Shown here one piece after another: positions 2,385 to 15,184 of a stretch of DNA of 41,294 nt. A program made the translations under genes and the position numbers. Source of the stretch: Candidatus Faecalibacterium gallistercoris. Its GTDB lineage: Bacteria > Bacillota > Clostridia > Oscillospirales > Ruminococcaceae. The DNA lies in NCBI GenBank assembly GCA_019116585.1, contig DXBJ01000034.1:1-41294 (forward strand), given 5' to 3'. Numbering within the stretch: position 1 is the first letter of the stretch; each line of letters begins with the position of its first letter. The notes beneath the pieces are model-generated. The model was not told where the DNA came from and searched no databases. It saw nothing but the letters and a program-made list of their open reading frames with translations.

Positions 2385-5009
2385 CTACATCCCTTTTACG
2401 ATATCCATAAACCGTTCCAGGGAATATGCGCCTGGATAATCGGGCTGTTTGGTCTCAAACACCATATAGTACTTATACTGTTTTCCGGCTAACTTTGCCC
2501 ACTGGTCACCGATTTTGGCTTTCTCTTTGGATTCATCGTTATCTAAATGGTCGCCCTTAGTTTCCACCATTAGAATCTTTCCACTCTGCAGCATCACAAT
2601 CAGATCCGGATAGGCGTGTACCGGCCCATTGATCTGGAATCCCAGTCTAGAGATATTCCGATGCCACCATTTCACATTATCAAGGGAGGCCAGCTTCCAC
2701 ACAACCTTGAACTCATACTTATCCATATCTTCCTCGGCCGTGTAAAGAGACTTGGGAACCATCGTGGTAAAGGAGGTCGGAGAAATTACCGTTGGCAGCG
2801 CGTAGTTGGGCCGGCAGACAATCTTGTCTTGTTCCAGCCAACGTTCAAAGGTGCGGCAGCGATGCTGAGAAAGCAGATGTTTGACCTTCTCCTGAATCTT
2901 GACAACATAGGGATATGGAGACTGTTCCAGCTCTGAAAGCTGGTCTTCAGTCAATGTCCCAATGACACGGTTGATATATTCATCCAGTTCCCTGTCGTTG
3001 ATACAGTTCATCTTCGACAGTCTCCCCTTAATCATCCCCTTGCACAGAGAAAGTCGCTTTTCAGAAGGTTGAACATTAAACCATTCACGGAAATAAAAGC
3101 TATCGCTACCAGACAGTAGCCACGCTTTTGCAGCGCTGTCTTTACTGTCATCCACATCCACCCGGGCCATCTCGGCGCTTACGGTATTAAAGTCAATGTG
3201 TGCATCTTTGTCCCGTAAGGAAAATCCACCTTCCAGGTGTTCCTTTTCCAATATCTCATACGAATCGGAAAAGAGGCTTGGCATGGTTTCCAGTGTGAAC
3301 TGCGGGAATCGCAGAGTAGAAGCTTCTTCAGCAAATTCAGCATTCATCCGGAACTGATTCATTTTATCCCGCACCTCCAGAGGAGCTTGACTCAGAGCCG
3401 TGTTATCTGCCTGGTTAATTTCATCTTCGTATGCTTTGTTCTGCTCTAGAGCCTGGGCCAGCATTGGGTCAGACTGTACTGTTGTCTCGTCGTTGGATCT
3501 CTCTGCCTCCTGTTTGGCCACATCAAACCGAGTTTTCAGATCCGAACCGCTTACGTCTGGTATCTCCGGTTCCTTCTCCGGACTTTGGACCATCGACAAC
3601 TGCTCCGGCTCTGCAGTGGGAGCTGCCAAAACTGGTATTTCTATATCTTGAGCCCGATAATCTCTGCTGCTGAATCCAGCGCTGTTCAAACCATCGACGA
3701 CCTTCTCTACGGTCTGATGAAAGTCTGCAGAAGATGTAATCACATAGGAAAGATTCAGAACTTCACTCTTATTCTTCCGGGTATAAGGCAGCCGCAGCAC
3801 CCGGCCCAGAATCTGCTCCACATCTACCACCGAGGTGCGGTTTGCTACTGTGGCCAAAACATAAGCAAATGGACAATCCCAGCCTTCTTTCAGGGCATTG
3901 ACTGTAACAATGTACCGGATCGGGCAATCGGGAGACAACAGGTCCACATTCTTCAGCTCATCCTTATCCCCTGTTTTGATGGCGATTTCCTGTTCAGGAA
4001 TACCGCCATCCAGCAGAGTTTTCTTGATCTTTTCATAAGTGGTACTATCAGCCTTGGTGCGGGGTTGCGCCTGGAAAAGAACAATGGGACGAATGTAGCA
4101 CCCACTGATCTCCTGCTCTCGCTTGGCCTGCGCTTCCAGTTTGGCCCGAATAGCAATCGCATCGGCATATACATCAGCCTGTGATTTACGGTTATAAACG
4201 ATCACCGGCAGTTTGACCATATTGGCCCGTTTGAGCTGGGAGGCATCAACAAACGAAATAATATTGCTGTTCTTTTTGGGCGTGGCCGTTAGGTCCAGAA
4301 CAAAACAGGGGTTGAAGTTCTGCAGCATCTCCACACTCAATTCAGAAGTGGCATGATGGCTTTCATCCACAATCACCACCGGATTCAAAAACCGGATCAC
4401 CTGAATCAATGCGGTCTCGTCGGTATCTGCCAGCAAAGCCGATGGATCATTCATCCATTTTGCAAAGTCTGCCAGATAACCGTTTTGCTGATAGGCCTTG
4501 CGGCCATCCTTCTTACTGGTTCTGAAAGAGTCATAGCTAAGTACAAAAACTGATAGTTGTTCTGTGACAGAAGAAGGATTGATATTTTGCCCCATCAATG
4601 CCTGTTCCTTGGAGTAGACCTCCACCCGGCCCCCAAAATCCACATCCAACCGCTGGCGGTATGGATGGTTCGGATTTTGCAAAGCCCTGCTCGTCTGGGT
4701 CAAAATGGCATCCGACGGCACCAGCCAGACTACTGCTTTGGCCCGGCGCTGGGGCATGGCATCAAAAATTGTCCGAACGGCACTGGCCGCAATGTAGGTT
4801 TTCCCGCCGCCGGTGGGAACCTTGGCGCACACATGAGGGACGCCGGGCAATACATTGACATAATTGGGCATACCTCCCAGTCCCACCATCACATTTCGCT
4901 CATTCCAAAAAGCAGTATAAGCTTTGGCCGGGCTCTGCAGTTCTACCACCAACTCCAGATAGCGCGCAAGATCGGCAAGGACTTCTTTCTGATAAGACTT
5001 AAGTTCCAT
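2385..5009 (-). CDS. res: Type III restriction Res-like helicase-nuclease
   Basis: An 874-residue superfamily 2 helicase with a C-terminal nuclease, the usual plan of type III Res subunits. Visible motifs are Walker A VPTGGGKT (about residues 64-71), Walker B VIVDESHHAT (about 215), motif III LDLTATPKK, motif VI QILGRVLRLPY, and near the C-terminus a PD-(D/E)xK pattern, YPDLIVM then MVETKGD. Res uses ATP to communicate between recognition sites and cuts unmodified DNA together with Mod. I chose the ATG at 5009 because AGGTGA lies 8 nt upstream and it is 1 nt after the previous stop; an in-frame GTG at 5021 would add four residues but has no better ribosome site. All key motifs are present, so it looks functional. 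Confidence 0.92.
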   Translation of the reverse strand: MELKSYQKEVLADLARYLELVVELQSPAKAYTAFWNERNVMVGLGGMPNYVNVLPGVPHVCAKVPTGGGKTYIAASAVRTIFDAMPQRRAKAVVWLVPSDAILTQTSRALQNPNHPYRQRLDVDFGGRVEVYSKEQALMGQNINPSSVTEQLSVFVLSYDSFRTSKKDGRKAYQQNGYLADFAKWMNDPSALLADTDETALIQVIRFLNPVVIVDESHHATSELSVEMLQNFNPCFVLDLTATPKKNSNIISFVDASQLKRANMVKLPVIVYNRKSQADVYADAIAIRAKLEAQAKREQEISGCYIRPIVLFQAQPRTKADSTTYEKIKKTLLDGGIPEQEIAIKTGDKDELKNVDLLSPDCPIRYIVTVNALKEGWDCPFAYVLATVANRTSVVDVEQILGRVLRLPYTRKNKSEVLNLSYVITSSADFHQTVEKVVDGLNSAGFSSRDYRAQDIEIPVLAAPTAEPEQLSMVQSPEKEPEIPDVSGSDLKTRFDVAKQEAERSNDETTVQSDPMLAQALEQNKAYEDEINQADNTALSQAPLEVRDKMNQFRMNAEFAEEASTLRFPQFTLETMPSLFSDSYEILEKEHLEGGFSLRDKDAHIDFNTVSAEMARVDVDDSKDSAAKAWLLSGSDSFYFREWFNVQPSEKRLSLCKGMIKGRLSKMNCINDRELDEYINRVIGTLTEDQLSELEQSPYPYVVKIQEKVKHLLSQHRCRTFERWLEQDKIVCRPNYALPTVISPTSFTTMVPKSLYTAEEDMDKYEFKVVWKLASLDNVKWWHRNISRLGFQINGPVHAYPDLIVMLQSGKILMVETKGDHLDNDESKEKAKIGDQWAKLAGKQYKYYMVFETKQPDYPGAYSLERFMDIVKGM

Positions 5010-10350: not shown

Positions 10351-10504
10351 TAATTCACCTCCATTGTTTTTATTTTACCATATCCGACCTGTCGAATAGG
10401 GTCGAGGGAACGAATCATCCTGATATTTTGAACACATATCCGTTTCGTCCATAATCGTGGAAAACGGCTGTCAGAGCGCCTTTATTTTAATTTATGGAAA
10501 AATC

Positions 10505-10885: not shown

Positions 10886-10950
10886 TGTATACGAGAGAAC
10901 TTGGCCTTTTCGCTATGTACAGGCCCGTACAGATCCATTCGGCGAAAGGC
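10886..10950 (+). repeat. Copy A of a repeated module left of the IS element
   Basis: Contains ATACGAGAGAACTTGGCC and TTTTCGCTATGTAC, which recur at 12537-12590 and 12731-12809. It ends in a second hairpin half GGCGAAAGG. The IS element separates this copy from the others. Confidence 0.6.
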
Positions 10951-10966: not shown

Positions 10967-12465
10967 TTTCGGAGCTGTTGACAAAAGGGCTCCAAAAGAT
11001 CATCAGCCCCTTCAGAAGAAGGTTTTCACGCAAAAGAAAAAGGCCGGATTGCGGCCTTCACCAGTCGTATTAAGTTCATAGCGCATGCAGACAAGAGGCA
11101 TTGCTCGGTTACTCGTTCAATGCCTCGTTTGTATGTCCACCTTAAATTGTGCTCTGATTTCTGGTGGGAGAAATTGCCTTCGCACCAGATCTTCCGCAGT
11201 CTCAGTGCAGCAAAGTATTCTGGTGTGTTCAGATTTTTCATCTGCTCCTGCCTGGATTCTTCATGCATCAGGCGCTCAATGAGGCGGCTATTTTTGGAAT
11301 TACCCATGCACTGTTGTCGGCATGGACAGCTGCTGCAGTCTTTCTTTGCAGCCAGATATCTCTTCTTTTGGCTTTTCTTGCTATAACAAGAATATTCTAA
11401 TATTTTTCCTTGTGGACAGACATAGAAATCTTTTTCTGAATTGTAGTTGAACGCCTCCGGTTCAAAGCCAGTTGTGTGAGAAGAAGCATTGTTGGGCTTT
11501 CTCTTTTTGGGAATATATGTTCGAATCCCGCGCTTTAACATGGCATCATACACTTCGCTGTTGTCATAACCAGCATCCGCGCAGATGGCTTCTGTTTTAA
11601 AGCCAAACTTATCAATCTGTGTTTCCAGTCGACTGGTATGAGGTGTGCAGTCATTGACATTCCCGGGCGTAACGAAAACATCTGTAATAATACCACATTC
11701 AGCATCACTGGTCTGGTGGTTCAGATAACAGAAAGCGTTGGGTTTTCCTGGACGATTCATAAGTCCTGATTCCGGGTCAGTGGTACTCTTAATAATCGTT
11801 TTTGTCTTTTCTGGATATGTGACAGCTTCATCCAGCAGACCTGCTTCCAGTGCTTCCCGGTCCAGCTTTTTCACATATTCAGAAGGCGTATCTGGAACCG
11901 CGATGACCTCCCGTTTTTCCTTTGAAGCATTTGCAAGAATGTGTGTGGAATCTGTCAGCAGAAGCTTTCCTGATACCAGTCCAGCAGCCATACATTTGCG
12001 GACAACTTCATCAAAAATATCCTGAAACAGAGTTGTCTTCCCGAATTTTCGGCGGCGAAGCTGAGAAATGGTAGAATGATCCGGAACAGGCTCGTCAAAG
12101 TCAATTCCCAGAAACCAGCGGAAAGCGATATTTATTCGAACTTCCTGCTCCAGCTTCCGCTCAGAAGGAATGCCGTACAGGTATCCCAAAAGGAGCATTT
12201 TTACCAGAAGCACAGGATCAACGGAAGGCCGTCCCACTTTGGCGTATAGCGGTTCAACGATATCGTAAATGAAGCTGAAATCCACACACTGCTCCAAATT
12301 GCGAAGGAAATGACTTTCCGGCATCAGTTCCTCCAGCGTCAAAAAGGTCATTTTCAGTTGTTTGCTGCCGTCCCGTTTCATCATACGCTTCACACCCATT
12401 TTTCTTTATTGTACCATGGTTCAGATGATAAAGCGAGATTTCAGAGTTTGTCAACAGCTCCGAAG
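10967..12465 (-). mobile_element. IS1182-family insertion sequence, apparently complete
   Basis: Perfect 18-bp terminal inverted repeats lie at 10968-10985 and 12447-12464 (TTCGGAGCTGTTGACAAA, inward). Both ends are flanked by CACG (10963-10966 and 12466-12469), a likely 4-bp target duplication that sets the element at about 1499 bp. The single transposase gene lies inside on the minus strand. Outside the duplication, AAGGGGTGT and ACGCCCTT would form a hairpin in the uninterrupted target, so the element seems to have landed in a hairpin loop. Confidence 0.85.
11026..12399 (-). CDS. IS1182-family transposase
   Basis: A 457-residue DDE transposase. The N-terminal part carries the dimerisation and DNA-binding region typical of the family (LVKMLLLGYLYGIPSERKLE; FRWFLGIDFDEPVPDHSTIS), with the catalytic core after LLLTDSTHILANASKEKRE and CADAGYDN, and a cysteine group near the C-terminus (CSSCPCRQQC). 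Length is normal for IS1182 transposases and the frame is intact, so it may be active. There is no strong ribosome site before the ATG (AATAAAGAAAA), as is common for transposases kept at low expression. It lies entirely between the terminal repeats. Confidence 0.92.
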   Translation of the reverse strand: MGVKRMMKRDGSKQLKMTFLTLEELMPESHFLRNLEQCVDFSFIYDIVEPLYAKVGRPSVDPVLLVKMLLLGYLYGIPSERKLEQEVRINIAFRWFLGIDFDEPVPDHSTISQLRRRKFGKTTLFQDIFDEVVRKCMAAGLVSGKLLLTDSTHILANASKEKREVIAVPDTPSEYVKKLDREALEAGLLDEAVTYPEKTKTIIKSTTDPESGLMNRPGKPNAFCYLNHQTSDAECGIITDVFVTPGNVNDCTPHTSRLETQIDKFGFKTEAICADAGYDNSEVYDAMLKRGIRTYIPKKRKPNNASSHTTGFEPEAFNYNSEKDFYVCPQGKILEYSCYSKKSQKKRYLAAKKDCSSCPCRQQCMGNSKNSRLIERLMHEESRQEQMKNLNTPEYFAALRLRKIWCEGNFSHQKSEHNLRWTYKRGIERVTEQCLLSACAMNLIRLVKAAIRPFSFA

Positions 12466-12536
12466 CACGACGCCCTTACACTATCAACAAGGAGTCGGCG
12501 AGTCACCGCCCCCTTGATTTTACAGAGGATTTTCTC

Positions 12537-12590
12537 TATATACGAGAACTTGCCTTTTTCGCTGTGTACGTATGTACGAGAATCGTGCAG
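12537..12590 (+). repeat. Copy B of the repeated module
   Basis: TATACGAGAACTTGCC then TTTTTCGCTGTGTACGTATG, similar to copies A and C; it lies just right of the IS element. Confidence 0.55.
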
Positions 12591-12730
12591 CGGCATACAG
12601 CAAATGCCTTTCAAGCACATCGCTTTATTTGTCCAAAGTAGGTGTGTTCAAATTGAACACACCTATAAAATCCACTGCTTGGAATCCAAATCACGCAGTT
12701 AAAGTGGCTGTTCCCATTTTGGGAACGGCC

Positions 12731-12850
12731 AAAATCTTGTATAAGAGGAAACTTGGCCTTTTTGCTATGTACGTATGTACAAGTTCTGTACGCACGTACA
12801 TAGCGAAAACCCTAAAACGCACCCTATGCACAAATCCTTTATAAGGCTAA
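12731..12850 (+). repeat. Copy C of the repeated module with internal hairpin
   Basis: Holds ACTTGGCC and a hairpin TTTTTGCTATGTACGT (12759-12774) / CACGTACATAGCGAAAA (12793-12809), then a tail ending TCCTTTATA directly before the palindrome at 12852. The tail matches copy D (13202-13256) with few differences. Confidence 0.65.
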
Positions 12851-13178
12851 AGTGGTTGTGGACATTTTGTCCACAACCACACAGGTTTGACCAAGTTGTC
12901 ACGGTGACAACTTGATTTTAGTGGCACTGGACAAATTGTCCAGTGCCACCGCTTCTCTCAAGGAAACTTTAAAATTCTGAAGTAGATACGGATAAAATGT
13001 CCACATTTTTTATTGGATAATCTTTTGGGAAGTGCATTCGCTTTAATCCAATTTTTGTAATCAAGTGGTCAAAATGACCACTTGATCTTGCACAATAGAA
13101 GTTCGCGGCAGATGTGAGAAGATCAACGGACAGATTTTGTCCGTTGATTTTCTGGAATACCTAGATGTTCACCTTCCA

Positions 13179-13262
13179 CCGCTATGTACGCATCAACCTC
13201 CGTACGCACGTACATAGCGAAACGCCCAAAACGCGCTATATACGCAATCCTTTATAGTACTG
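13179..13262 (+). repeat. Copy D of the repeated module with internal hairpin
   Basis: CGCTATGTACG (13180-13190) pairs with CGTACATAGCG (13209-13219). The tail AAAACGC...TCCTTTATA again runs straight into a palindrome starting AGTGG (13264), as in copy C. Confidence 0.65.
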
Positions 13263-13708
13263 AAGTGGTCTGGGTCATTTTGACCCAGACCACTCGGTTC
13301 CGATCAAGTTCCCATTTTGAGAACTCGATTTCAGTTATCTCCTCTTCCTTTGTAAAAAAGCTCAGCACATTGTCGCCAATAAATATCAGTTGGTCATTTT
13401 GACCAACTGAAAAGCAGGTCATTTTATCTCAAGAGCAAATCAGTAAGTTAAAGTGGTCGGATTCAAAAAGAATCCGACTACTTTATTTTCTTAAAGTCTA
13501 GGTAAAAAACCACCCGTGCTGCACATTTTGGATCAAGTTACCAAAGTGGTAACTTGATTTTGGGACACGTTTGCCTCAGTTTGCAGACTTAAAATCAAGT
13601 GGTCATTTTGACCACTTGATTTTGGTTCAGTTGGTGCTGGACAAAATGTCCAGCACCACTTTTATAATCGAATCTCATCCACCTACCTAAAAGAAAGGAG
13701 TCTGTACT

Positions 13709-13831
13709 ATGCCCGTCATCAATACGATTGAATTGCCAAAAAGGAGGGCCGTCCTTGAGCCAACCACAATACGCCATCATGCGCTTCGCCAAGTACGAGG
13801 GGCCAGAGATCTCCAACATCGAGGCCCATAA
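13709..13831 (+). CDS. Possible 40-residue leader peptide overlapping the relaxase start
   Basis: ATG at 13709 with AAAGGAG 8 nt upstream opens a 40-codon frame (N-terminus MPVINTIELPKRR) that ends at 13831, overlapping the first 77 nt of the relaxase gene in another frame. The ribosome site is better placed than most in the window. It could couple translation to the relaxase or be chance; nothing in the peptide is recognised. Confidence 0.35.
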   Translation: MPVINTIELPKRRAVLEPTTIRHHALRQVRGARDLQHRGP

Positions 13832-14741
13832 CGAGCGCAGAAAAGAAAAGTATGCCAGCAACCCCGACATCGATCTTTCCCGCAGCAAGCAAAACTTCCA
13901 CCTGATTGAGCCGCCCCGGCGGTACCGGGCTGAGGCTGAGCGGCAGATTAGCGCCGCTGGATGCCGCACCCGGAAGGACAGCGTTCGGGTGGTGGAAGTC
14001 CTGTTCACCGCCACGCCGGAGTTCTTCAAGGGCAAGAAGCTGCCCGAAATCCGGCAGTATTTTGAGGAAACACTCCGTTTCTTTGATCAATACCAGTCCA
14101 GAGAAACAATCATCTCCGCCGTGGTGCATATGGACGAGAAAACAGCCCATATGCACCTTTCTTTTGTCCCCTTGACGCCAGACGGTCGGCTCAGTGCCAA
14201 GGAGATCGTAGGCAATAAAAAGAAACTGACCTGGTGGCAGGACAAGTTCTGGGAACACATGGTCCAAAAGTACCCCGACCTGGAGCGCGGCGAGAGCGCA
14301 AGCCAGACGGGCCGTGATCATATCCCGCCTCGTATCTTCAAGGAGATGACCCATCTCACCCAGCAGCGTCAGAAGCTGGACGAGCTACTGACCGGCATCG
14401 GCCCCTTGAACGGCAAGAAGCGGGCCGCTGAGATTTCCGAACTGCTGGACGGTTATATCCCGGCCGTGGAGAAGATGCGGTCTCAGCTCAAAAAGTACAG
14501 TACGGCCTTCACCAGCACCAAGGCTGAGAATGAAAAGCTCAAGAAGAAAAACAAAAAGCTCTCAGAGTCCCTGGATGAGGCGACCCATGAGAGCGTGCTG
14601 AAACAGCTGAAAGATGCCAAGCTCCAGCGGGAGTACCAGGAGGCTCTCGAGATTCTGGAGCGGATTCCCAAAGAGGTTCTGGATGCGTATACCCACAGGG
14701 GAACCACAGAACGACACCACCCCATGAAACAGGACTTATGA
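13755..14741 (+). CDS. mobV: MobV-family relaxase (Pre/Mob)
   Basis: A 328-residue plasmid-mobilisation relaxase that nicks one strand at an origin of transfer and leads it into a recipient. The N-terminus SQPQYAIMRFAKYEG is typical of MobV proteins, and the catalytic signature HMDEKTAHMHLSFVPLT is at about residues 125-141 (H125, D127, E128, H132, H134). The C-terminal third is coiled coil. I chose the TTG at 13755: AAGGAGGG is 7 nt upstream and the known MobV N-terminus begins there; an ATG at 13728 would add nine unrelated residues. The palindrome-rich DNA just upstream is where an origin of transfer would be expected. No type IV secretion genes are present, so the element would depend on a helper. 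Confidence 0.9.
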   Translation: MSQPQYAIMRFAKYEGPEISNIEAHNERRKEKYASNPDIDLSRSKQNFHLIEPPRRYRAEAERQISAAGCRTRKDSVRVVEVLFTATPEFFKGKKLPEIRQYFEETLRFFDQYQSRETIISAVVHMDEKTAHMHLSFVPLTPDGRLSAKEIVGNKKKLTWWQDKFWEHMVQKYPDLERGESASQTGRDHIPPRIFKEMTHLTQQRQKLDELLTGIGPLNGKKRAAEISELLDGYIPAVEKMRSQLKKYSTAFTSTKAENEKLKKKNKKLSESLDEATHESVLKQLKDAKLQREYQEALEILERIPKEVLDAYTHRGTTERHHPMKQDL

Positions 14742-14758
14742 GCATGGGAGGTAATCAT

Positions 14759-14944
14759 TTGGCAAAAAAGAAAGCGATCAATGATTACGGCACCGGCATT
14801 CCACAGCACGAAATGGAAGCGCTGGCTCGAGTCCTGCTGCCGGAAATTGAAAAATTTTATGCCAGCGAAGAAGGCCAGCGCCAGTTCGCTCAGTGGAAAG
14901 AGGAACAGCAGCTGAAGCAGCAAGGCCTCTCCATGACTGGATAA
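14759..14944 (+). CDS. Small hypothetical protein next to the relaxase
   Basis: A 61-residue, charged, probably helical protein (KKKAINDYGTGIPQHEMEAL near the N-terminus, QWKEEQQLKQQG near the C-terminus). I place the start at the TTG at 14759, with GGGAGG 7 nt upstream, rather than the ATG at 14738 that overlaps the relaxase stop. The 17-nt spacing to the relaxase gene indicates a two-gene operon, so it may help relaxase action, but no domain is recognised. Confidence 0.7.
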   Translation: MAKKKAINDYGTGIPQHEMEALARVLLPEIEKFYASEEGQRQFAQWKEEQQLKQQGLSMTG

Positions 14945-14959
14945 AACAACTGATTCTCC

Positions 14960-14985
14960 ATCAAGTGCCCAGCCGGGCACTTGAT
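14960..14985. repeat. Fifteenth palindrome of the ATCAAG class
   Basis: Arms ATCAAGTGCCC and GGGCACTTGAT with loop AGCC, 15 nt after the small gene. It has the same outer arms as palindromes in the 12640-13658 array. The rest of 14986-15184 shows no gene. Confidence 0.75.
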
Positions 14986-15184
14986 TTACATCATACAAAG
15001 TGTATTGTGTTATCTTCAGTCCAAAATAGTCCCATCTTGTCCTGAAGAAGATTTAACTTATATTGGTGCAGCATTTCACAAGCCCATAGAAGCCCTAGAA
15101 ATGTGGCATCCATGGATAACCAAAATTAGGTTGCAGACAGGCTTAAAAGCGTTTTTAGGGCCCTCAAAATCCATCTGGCAAGCA

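Follow-up and report, generated by a model that had tools for sequence, protein, structure and literature searches.

The window, that is, the whole stretch of 41,294 nucleotides of Candidatus Faecalibacterium gallistercoris DNA analysed here (contig DXBJ01000034.1), contains at 12639-13658 an array of 14 palindromes, downstream of which lies a gene for a relaxase of the MobV family. An insertion sequence separates the array from the left remnant of the element (10501 or further left, to 10969), the homology blocks being broken at 10969/12462 in a comparison whose query began at 10501. The features are as follows, the L numbers designating our loci.

11026..12399, minus strand: insertion sequence transposase gene (Pfam DUF772, DDE_Tnp_1_6)
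12639..12665, unstranded: palindrome 1, inner arm GTTCA; closest gene-embedded palindrome in L285, with 2 of 12 arm positions differing
12705..12731, unstranded: palindrome 2, inner arm TCCCA; nearest gene-embedded arm at 4 mismatches (L149), or at 3 in a larger library (L315)
12759..12809, unstranded: separate imperfect palindrome GCTATGTACGTATGTAC..GTACGCACGTACATAGC, of a second repeat family of the element
12852..12880, unstranded: palindrome 3, inner arm GGACA; L285 at 2 arm mismatches
12890..12916, unstranded: palindrome 4, arm CCAAGTTGTCA; one arm equal to the site inside ParB-like genes L080/L127
12921..12949, unstranded: palindrome 5, inner arm GGACA; L106 at 2 arm mismatches
13060..13086, unstranded: palindrome 6, ATCAAGTGGTCA; full 27-mer equal to the site inside ParB-like gene L303
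13117..13153, unstranded: palindrome 7, ATCAACGGACA; 5-nt centre; L300 at 2 arm mismatches
13180..13219, unstranded: second copy of the GTACGCACGTACATAGCG repeat
13264..13294, unstranded: palindrome 8, TGGTCTGGGTCA; L144/L128 at 1 arm mismatch
13303..13329, unstranded: palindrome 9, ATCAAGTTCCCA; two mismatches; left arm equal to L256
13384..13412, unstranded: palindrome 10, ATCAGTTGGTCA; one arm equal to L122
13449..13485, unstranded: palindrome 11, TGGTCGGATTC; 5-nt centre; L144/L128 at 2 arm mismatches
13532..13558, unstranded: palindrome 12, ATCAAGTTACCA; arms equal to L132/L133, with a different centre
13591..13623, unstranded: palindrome 13, ATCAAGTGGTCA; arms equal to L303; centre complementary to that of palindrome 6
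13632..13658, unstranded: palindrome 14, TGGTGCTGGACA; closest to the relaxase gene; full 27-mer equal to the site inside ParB-like gene L106
13728..14741, plus strand: MobV family relaxase gene (Pfam Mob_Pre 1.6e-49, NCBIfam MobV 1.1e-45); start perhaps the TTG at 13755
14759..14945, plus strand: small ORF 3' of mobV, without a family match
14960..14985, unstranded: 26-bp palindrome 3' of the mob genes, in a different register

The second repeat family, with the core GTACGTATGTAC / GTACGTGCGTAC, occurs in the window at 10886-10920, 12539-12580, 12759-12809 and 13180-13219, and elsewhere at L085 3900, L096 4086, L118 3819 and L155 8307; these repeats adjoin palindromes in several mobilizable elements and are perhaps an oriT or primase-origin motif. 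Another frame at 13709-13831 holds a small leader ORF that begins ATGCCCGTCATC, has a ribosome-binding site of its own and overlaps the mobV start; among five aligned loci the beginning of this ORF is conserved, L033 and L038 each showing a single change.

Geometry of the palindrome array

A strict scan of 12601-13700 (arm of at least 10, centre of at most 5, at most one mismatch) returned 13 palindromes, whereas 200 dinucleotide-preserving shuffles yielded 0.02 on average and never more than 1. From 43 distinct 27-mers of seven loci a common geometry could be read, consisting of 12-nt arms around a 3-nt centre, usually CA-NNN-TG, to which the palindromes at 13117 and 13449, each with a 5-nt centre, are exceptions; over the 14 sites the array displays 13 different arms. 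Our rescan agreed with the coordinates and sequences that an earlier note, made from the letters alone, had given for the array, and reproduced exactly the pair at 13060-13086 and 13594-13620, whose arms are identical and whose centres are exactly complementary. The description of the palindromes in that note as mostly perfect holds loosely, in that 8 of the 14 are free of mismatches, but 5 of the 14 have one and 1 of the 14 has two (13303-13329). What had been called a fifteenth copy, at 14960-14985, is indeed a palindrome, of 26 bp, but its 4-nt centre places it outside the 12+3+12 register, and its membership is uncertain. The mixing and matching of inner and outer arms is real, a candidate explanation being that the inner arm varies with the recognition helix of a ParB-like protein.

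When a covariance model of the 27-mers was run on the 2.34-Mb assembly, 12 distinct sites were obtained at E ≤ 0.05, all of them inside the array (150 of the 211 candidates being scored). A genome-dispersed repeat of the RPE/REP kind was accordingly rejected, the same scoring having given zero model matches outside the array in the window genome.

Relatives of the array and their carrier elements

The same layout upstream of MobV genes in related genomes, for which the earlier note had proposed to search, was found in other Faecalibacterium genomes at mobV identities of at least 79%, in arrays whose order is partly conserved and in which blocks have been gained or lost. At 76% identity (L040, L041) a few palindromes are left; in MobV loci from other genera the stretch covered contains 0-2, frequently including one near -613. 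The array is absent from three distinct loci whose MobV is at least 90% identical (L036 = L181, L037 = L183, and L182), of which L036 keeps one imperfect palindrome, at -93.

With at most 150 candidates scored per genome, the palindrome model matched in at least 24 of the 31 genomes of the genus. Among 39 loci with palindrome matches two contexts emerged, namely clusters, often near relaxases, and single in-frame palindromes inside genes. The clusters hold from 1 to about 15-19 sites, according to the stringency of the scan, and often lie upstream of one of three relaxase types: a MobV of 337 aa, a MobV of 428 aa, or a 451-aa protein with the motif HLDESTPHIH. Some sites depart from this pattern: none of the relaxases tested was matched in L087 or L098, and L101 has its palindromes ahead of the primase. 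The fuller elements (L033, L038, L085, L095, L097) comprise a P4-type primase, palindromes, a relaxase and a tyrosine integrase, a VapE-type gene standing in place of that primase in L119. The window element yielded neither a primase nor an integrase of these types, and it reads as a remnant of a Faecalibacterium mobilizable element composed of primase, palindromes, relaxase and integrase. A plasmid search with 12420-14990 matched the mobV part and not the array; when phages were searched with mobV, 3 records came up.

ParB-like genes with an embedded palindrome

Most of the genes with an in-frame palindrome belong to one family, whose products have an N-terminal ParB-like domain, a linker and a helix-turn-helix (HTH). 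By protein search this family occurs in 22 of the 31 genomes of the genus, with up to 9 matches each, and elsewhere in 6 of 148 genomes of the taxonomic family and in 32 phage records; the protein search of the window's own assembly, which is 93% complete, found no ParB-like gene. The linker carries a palindrome before the HTH in 78 of 86 distinct gene regions, a few being broken or misregistered, in a set that includes some loci fetched for a palindrome as well as genus members also found in the protein search (not every row of which was fetched), and that excludes matches stopping before the end of the N-terminal query and regions of less than 150 nt. Other windows of the same genes, used as controls, had a palindrome in 2 of 86 and 3 of 86 instances, and codon shuffles in 18 of 1720. 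Among relatives on viral contigs that were chosen by protein profile alone (67 of the 80 returned loci being examined), the palindrome was present in 33 of 67, with 0 and 2 in the control windows; it is missing in 34 of 67, a divergent group being without it, and also in 4 of the 5 family loci read (L171-L174).

A second site of the gene's own type was seen in 1 of 32 gene loci of at least 5 kb, with flanks of a few kb, and that site was a tandem copy in the same gene. The distant ParB-like gene of L376, which lies on a viral contig, contains its palindrome twice in tandem (4342-4410).

As to the proteins, weak PHROG ParB-like matches were obtained for L113, L106 and L107, and a Pfam scan gave no meaningful match for the ParB-like proteins. 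In the AlphaFold model of L256 (mean pLDDT 82) the residues encoded by the palindrome fall within a low-confidence linker, 118-134, before the first HTH helix; with that model Foldseek gave as top folds Spo0J/ParB 1vz0 (E 1.4e-4) and the pNOB8-like ParB-N 5k5d, at modest TM-scores of 0.27-0.36, which predicted fold places the cognate proteins in the ParB superfamily. If the embedded palindromes are binding sites, a reason would be at hand for the recurrence of a motif such as QN in the disordered linker, in that the DNA, and not the protein, would be under constraint there. An integrase or serine recombinase gene lies near the ParB-like gene in 11 of the 15 loci with sampled neighbours, an IstB-like ATPase gene also being present in the neighbourhood of L107; in L157 a VirD2-type relaxase gene, pieces of which occur in L155 and L156, is directly upstream of the ParB-like gene; and none of the 30 sampled neighbour proteins was named as ParA. 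From these sequences we infer that the embedded palindrome is probably the cognate parS-like site of the ParB-like protein.

Correspondence between array sites and gene-embedded sites

In the window array, 7 of the 14 palindromes have a 12-nt arm identical to a gene-embedded one (mean of 0.07 under a null in which arms were resampled from the array's own columns, with 0 of 1000 runs reaching the observed value), and 13 of the 14 lie within 2 arm mismatches of such a site (null mean 3.98, 0 of 1000); at 3 mismatches the contrast fades, to 13 versus a null of 9.58 (41 of 1000). This matching was run without L174, L291, L297 and L298, and took in odd-length palindromes that scored 6 or more and had 13 nt on either side. 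For the remaining 7 of the 14 no identical arm occurs among the genes compared, one of them being at 3-4 mismatches. When 11 regions with arrays or sites were pooled, 35 of their 108 distinct 27-mers proved identical to gene-embedded ones and 58 of 108 were within 1 mismatch; in a comparison set of 22 palindromes from elsewhere 1 was identical and 3 were within one mismatch, which three look like sites of the same kind.

No array locus figured in the list of ParB-like genes, among the loci then compared, in stretches of 8-14 kb that are not always whole elements. In the 12 genomes with both sites and genes, a near-matching site existed in the own genome for, on average, 24.7% of the resident gene copies versus 18.2% in the others, that is, without enrichment of matching pairs by co-residence (0.247 vs 0.182, permutation 0.21), and therefore the panel matches the population and not the present residents. 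An exact match in the same genome was found for 2 of the 41 resident copies, and one within 1 mismatch for 8 of the 41 (permutation 0.79 for depletion).

Association of the palindrome arm with the recognition helix

Partial Mantel tests on 45 genes (those left of 61 rows once these had been parsed, filtered by length and cleared of duplicates) gave r = 0.37 and p = 0.0002 for the arm with the HTH, given the N-terminus and the downstream part, as against r = -0.08 and p = 0.90 for the arm with the N-terminus and r = 0.10 and p = 0.055 for the arm with the part downstream of the HTH. In a set of helix-arm pairs (56 of 68 kept, de-duplicated), those distant pairs, with N-termini below 65% identity, that had at least 7 of 9 recognition residues equal differed in their inner arms at 0.93 of 5 positions versus 1.94 when permuted (41 pairs, p = 0.0002), the outer arm of the same 41 pairs being not significant (p = 0.057); with at least 6 of 9 residues equal, the inner arm differed at 1.31 versus 1.95 (127 pairs) and the outer arm reached p = 0.0016. 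When helices were grouped into classes after the fact, KNT/KNS/RNS went with the inner arm xCCCA in 8 of 8 instances, DSF/DSY/DAF/ESF with GG[T/C]CA in 6 of 6, EKY/EKT with GGACA in 3 of 4, EGY with GA[T/C]CA in 3 of 3, PIF with GCTCA in 2 of 2 (two distant members) and RNT/RST with TACCA in 2 of 2, the classes ESY, RAS and RTY being mixed. Several of these helix-linked inner arms are those that had earlier been seen to recombine in the array (GGACA, GGTCA, TTCCCA, TTACC). By these tests the palindrome sequence appears to follow the HTH and not the N-terminal domain; the covariation could in part be linkage, both lying close together in the gene, and the N-terminal side, which is also nearby, shows none.

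Pairing between orthologous arrays

Orthologous arrays were grouped and typed manually, and 570 of their 600 arm positions are paired. Of the 432 pair positions compared, 400 were unchanged and 9 showed changes in both arms that preserved the pair; a one-sided change had broken the pair at 14 positions and created one at 7, and the remaining 2 were of other kinds. In 8 of 36 orthologous comparisons the centre had turned into its exact reverse complement, AAA becoming TTT, for example in window 13060 versus L032 and L033, as hairpin-mediated inversion would give.

The earlier note had read the arms as being under selection on pairing or symmetry rather than on sequence, and had called for a covariance test. 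In that test compensation proved weak, with 9 both-sided changes versus 14 one-sided changes to unpaired, and at most the sequences would lend weak support to selection on pairing as such; moreover, the sequence itself matters, 7 of the 14 palindromes sharing an arm with a specific gene-embedded site, and therefore the reading in that note is unsupported. Selection for a hairpin or an RNA was likewise rejected, the array region having no Rfam match at gathering thresholds and compensation between orthologous arrays being weak.

Other families with in-gene palindromes

Genes for RhuM (PF13310) carry, immediately downstream of the segment that encodes the N-terminal HTH, an in-gene palindrome of varied sequence, in 27 of 27 distinct gene regions, with 0 of 27 and 0 of 27 in the control windows (loci L387-L397, L401-L403 and L405; the L199-type loci downstream of mobV; and L406-L412). 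In phage or satellite-phage copies the palindrome is at the same place in 5 of the 7 checked, one being weak, and in several other genera a RhuM gene with the palindrome lies downstream of mobV. A BRO-N gene at L083 3344-4231 and its counterpart at L084 3857-4765 contain the perfect palindrome CTACCTGGGGACA.. in the coding sequence (the family scan having covered L083), and BRO-N genes are possibly a third family with an in-gene target.

Interpretation

From the comparisons above, the palindromes are very probably sites at which different ParB-like proteins bind. The earlier note had listed protein-binding sites among the candidate roles, and the comparison supports that candidate, but the binders would be ParB-like proteins acting in trans, and not the adjacent MobV. 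We propose that the array may be a panel of sites for diversified ParB_N plus HTH proteins encoded by other integrated elements and by phages. Each ParB-like protein would bind the parS-like palindrome embedded in the linker of its own gene, so that specificity module and target, contained in one gene, would move together; the window element, devoid of ParB-like genes, would carry copies of many such sites upstream of its relaxase; and the ParB-like protein of a co-resident element, on binding the array, would partition, regulate or help to mobilize the carrier, or alternatively the carrier would become incompatible with the element encoding that protein. We regard this explanation as a whole, a panel of sites that lets the ParB-like proteins of other elements serve or regulate the carrier or else cause incompatibility, as likely. 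That its function is the exploitation of other elements, which is argued by analogy, stands at roughly even chances. The broader notion of a "ring of keys", by which elements collect the parS-like sites of a hypervariable ParB-like population and the genes carry their own target, seems to us a little short of evenly balanced; if it were true, RhuM might follow the same own-gene target logic, which extension we would judge marginally more doubtful than not.

Mobile palindromic repeats are familiar as the Rickettsia palindromic elements and as REP/MITE sequences, and repeats of this sort, inserting in intergenic DNA and, in frame, in the one tolerant ParB-like linker, would account for the same 27-bp sequences being found both in intergenic arrays and in the disordered linker of coding genes, as well as for the gain or loss of blocks between orthologous arrays; but the palindrome follows the recognition helix across distant homologues and not the N-terminus, a second own-type site is absent in 31 of the 32 gene loci of at least 5 kb (few-kb flanks), and RhuM, an unrelated DNA-binding family, has its own in-gene palindromes (27 of 27), all of which makes such an origin quite improbable. 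Hairpins of the element's own origin of transfer, of replication or of single-strand synthesis, recognised by MobV or by the P4-type primase, would fit the strong stems and the location of the array between the primase and relaxase genes in fuller elements (L033, L038), but we consider them unlikely: palindromes identical to those of the array sit in ParB-like genes, the same site type occurs upstream of three different relaxases, and orthologous arms change uncompensated at least as often as compensated. Furthermore, the array is missing beside three MobV relatives at least 90% identical, which kind of absence the earlier note had itself named as a refutation, so that an origin function needed by MobV is disfavoured. 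That the arms are perfect through template-switch (quasipalindrome) mutation only, free of any function, would agree with the exact reverse-complement centre flips in 8 of 36 orthologous comparisons, which hairpin inversion predicts, but would leave unexplained both the identity to gene-embedded sites and the association of helix with arm, and we find it highly improbable.

Another reading draws on the same binding-site evidence as the panel that we prefer, and takes the array as decoys or incompatibility determinants titrating the ParB-like proteins of competitors, with destabilisation or derepression of the competing elements. An exact same-genome site for just 2 of the 41 resident gene copies in the 12 genomes would accord with such titration, as would the parS copies of SGI1, which both stabilise SGI1 and destabilise its IncC helper (PMC10954446); near matches in the same genome are, however, not depleted (8 of the 41 copies within 1 mismatch, permutation 0.79), and we hold the decoy explanation to be conceivable and on balance rather unlikely. 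Whether such sites serve to hijack a helper, for stability or for transfer, or act as decoys or incompatibility determinants, the signature left in sequence would be the same.

If the panel interpretation is true, mobile elements would maintain a key-and-lock economy around ParB-like proteins, in which some elements carry locks for many keys, one element could be served by any one of a large number of others, or could exclude it, and the action of one element on another could be predicted allele by allele. Every such gene would then be a self-labelled protein-DNA recognition pair, with a code readable from sequence, and the in-gene targets would provide a natural set of matched helices and sites (56 de-duplicated pairs, and probably many more in databases) in which the evolution of the HTH code, a long-standing question, would become directly testable.

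Comparison with known systems

Among the titles listed by term searches of an open library there was no paper on multi-specificity arrays of ParB sites or on binding sites inside rhuM genes. ParB/parS, KorB/O_B and SopB/sopC each combine a ParB_N plus HTH protein with palindromic centromere or operator sites that are repeated, and a parS site within the chromosomal spo0J/parB gene is known. The present system shares with them that type of protein and the palindromic, repeated sites. To our knowledge, the known arrays of ParB-type sites repeat one site, whereas the sites of the present array are almost all different and have their counterparts within the coding sequence of a hypervariable protein.

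The closest likeness is to SGI1, also a mobilizable element with copies of a palindrome bound by the ParB of another element. SGI1 carries the parS of its IncC helper in two copies, owes stability to the helper ParABS and in turn destabilises that helper (PMC10954446). As in that example, our sites occur without a cognate parB in the element, in the stretches searched; co-residence of a helper with the element was not enriched in the 12 genomes. SGI1 differs in having two copies of a single helper specificity, with binding shown (PMC10954446), as against 14 putative sites with 13 different arms here. In plasmid NAH7 ParB activates transfer genes through a parS beside them, so that a ParB site likewise adjoins transfer genes, but with a single specificity that the same plasmid encodes (PMC12421886). 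Finally, the study of the ParB/Noc specificity switch deals with two specificities (PMC7383237), as compared with the dozens of putative natural helix-palindrome pairs of the present families.
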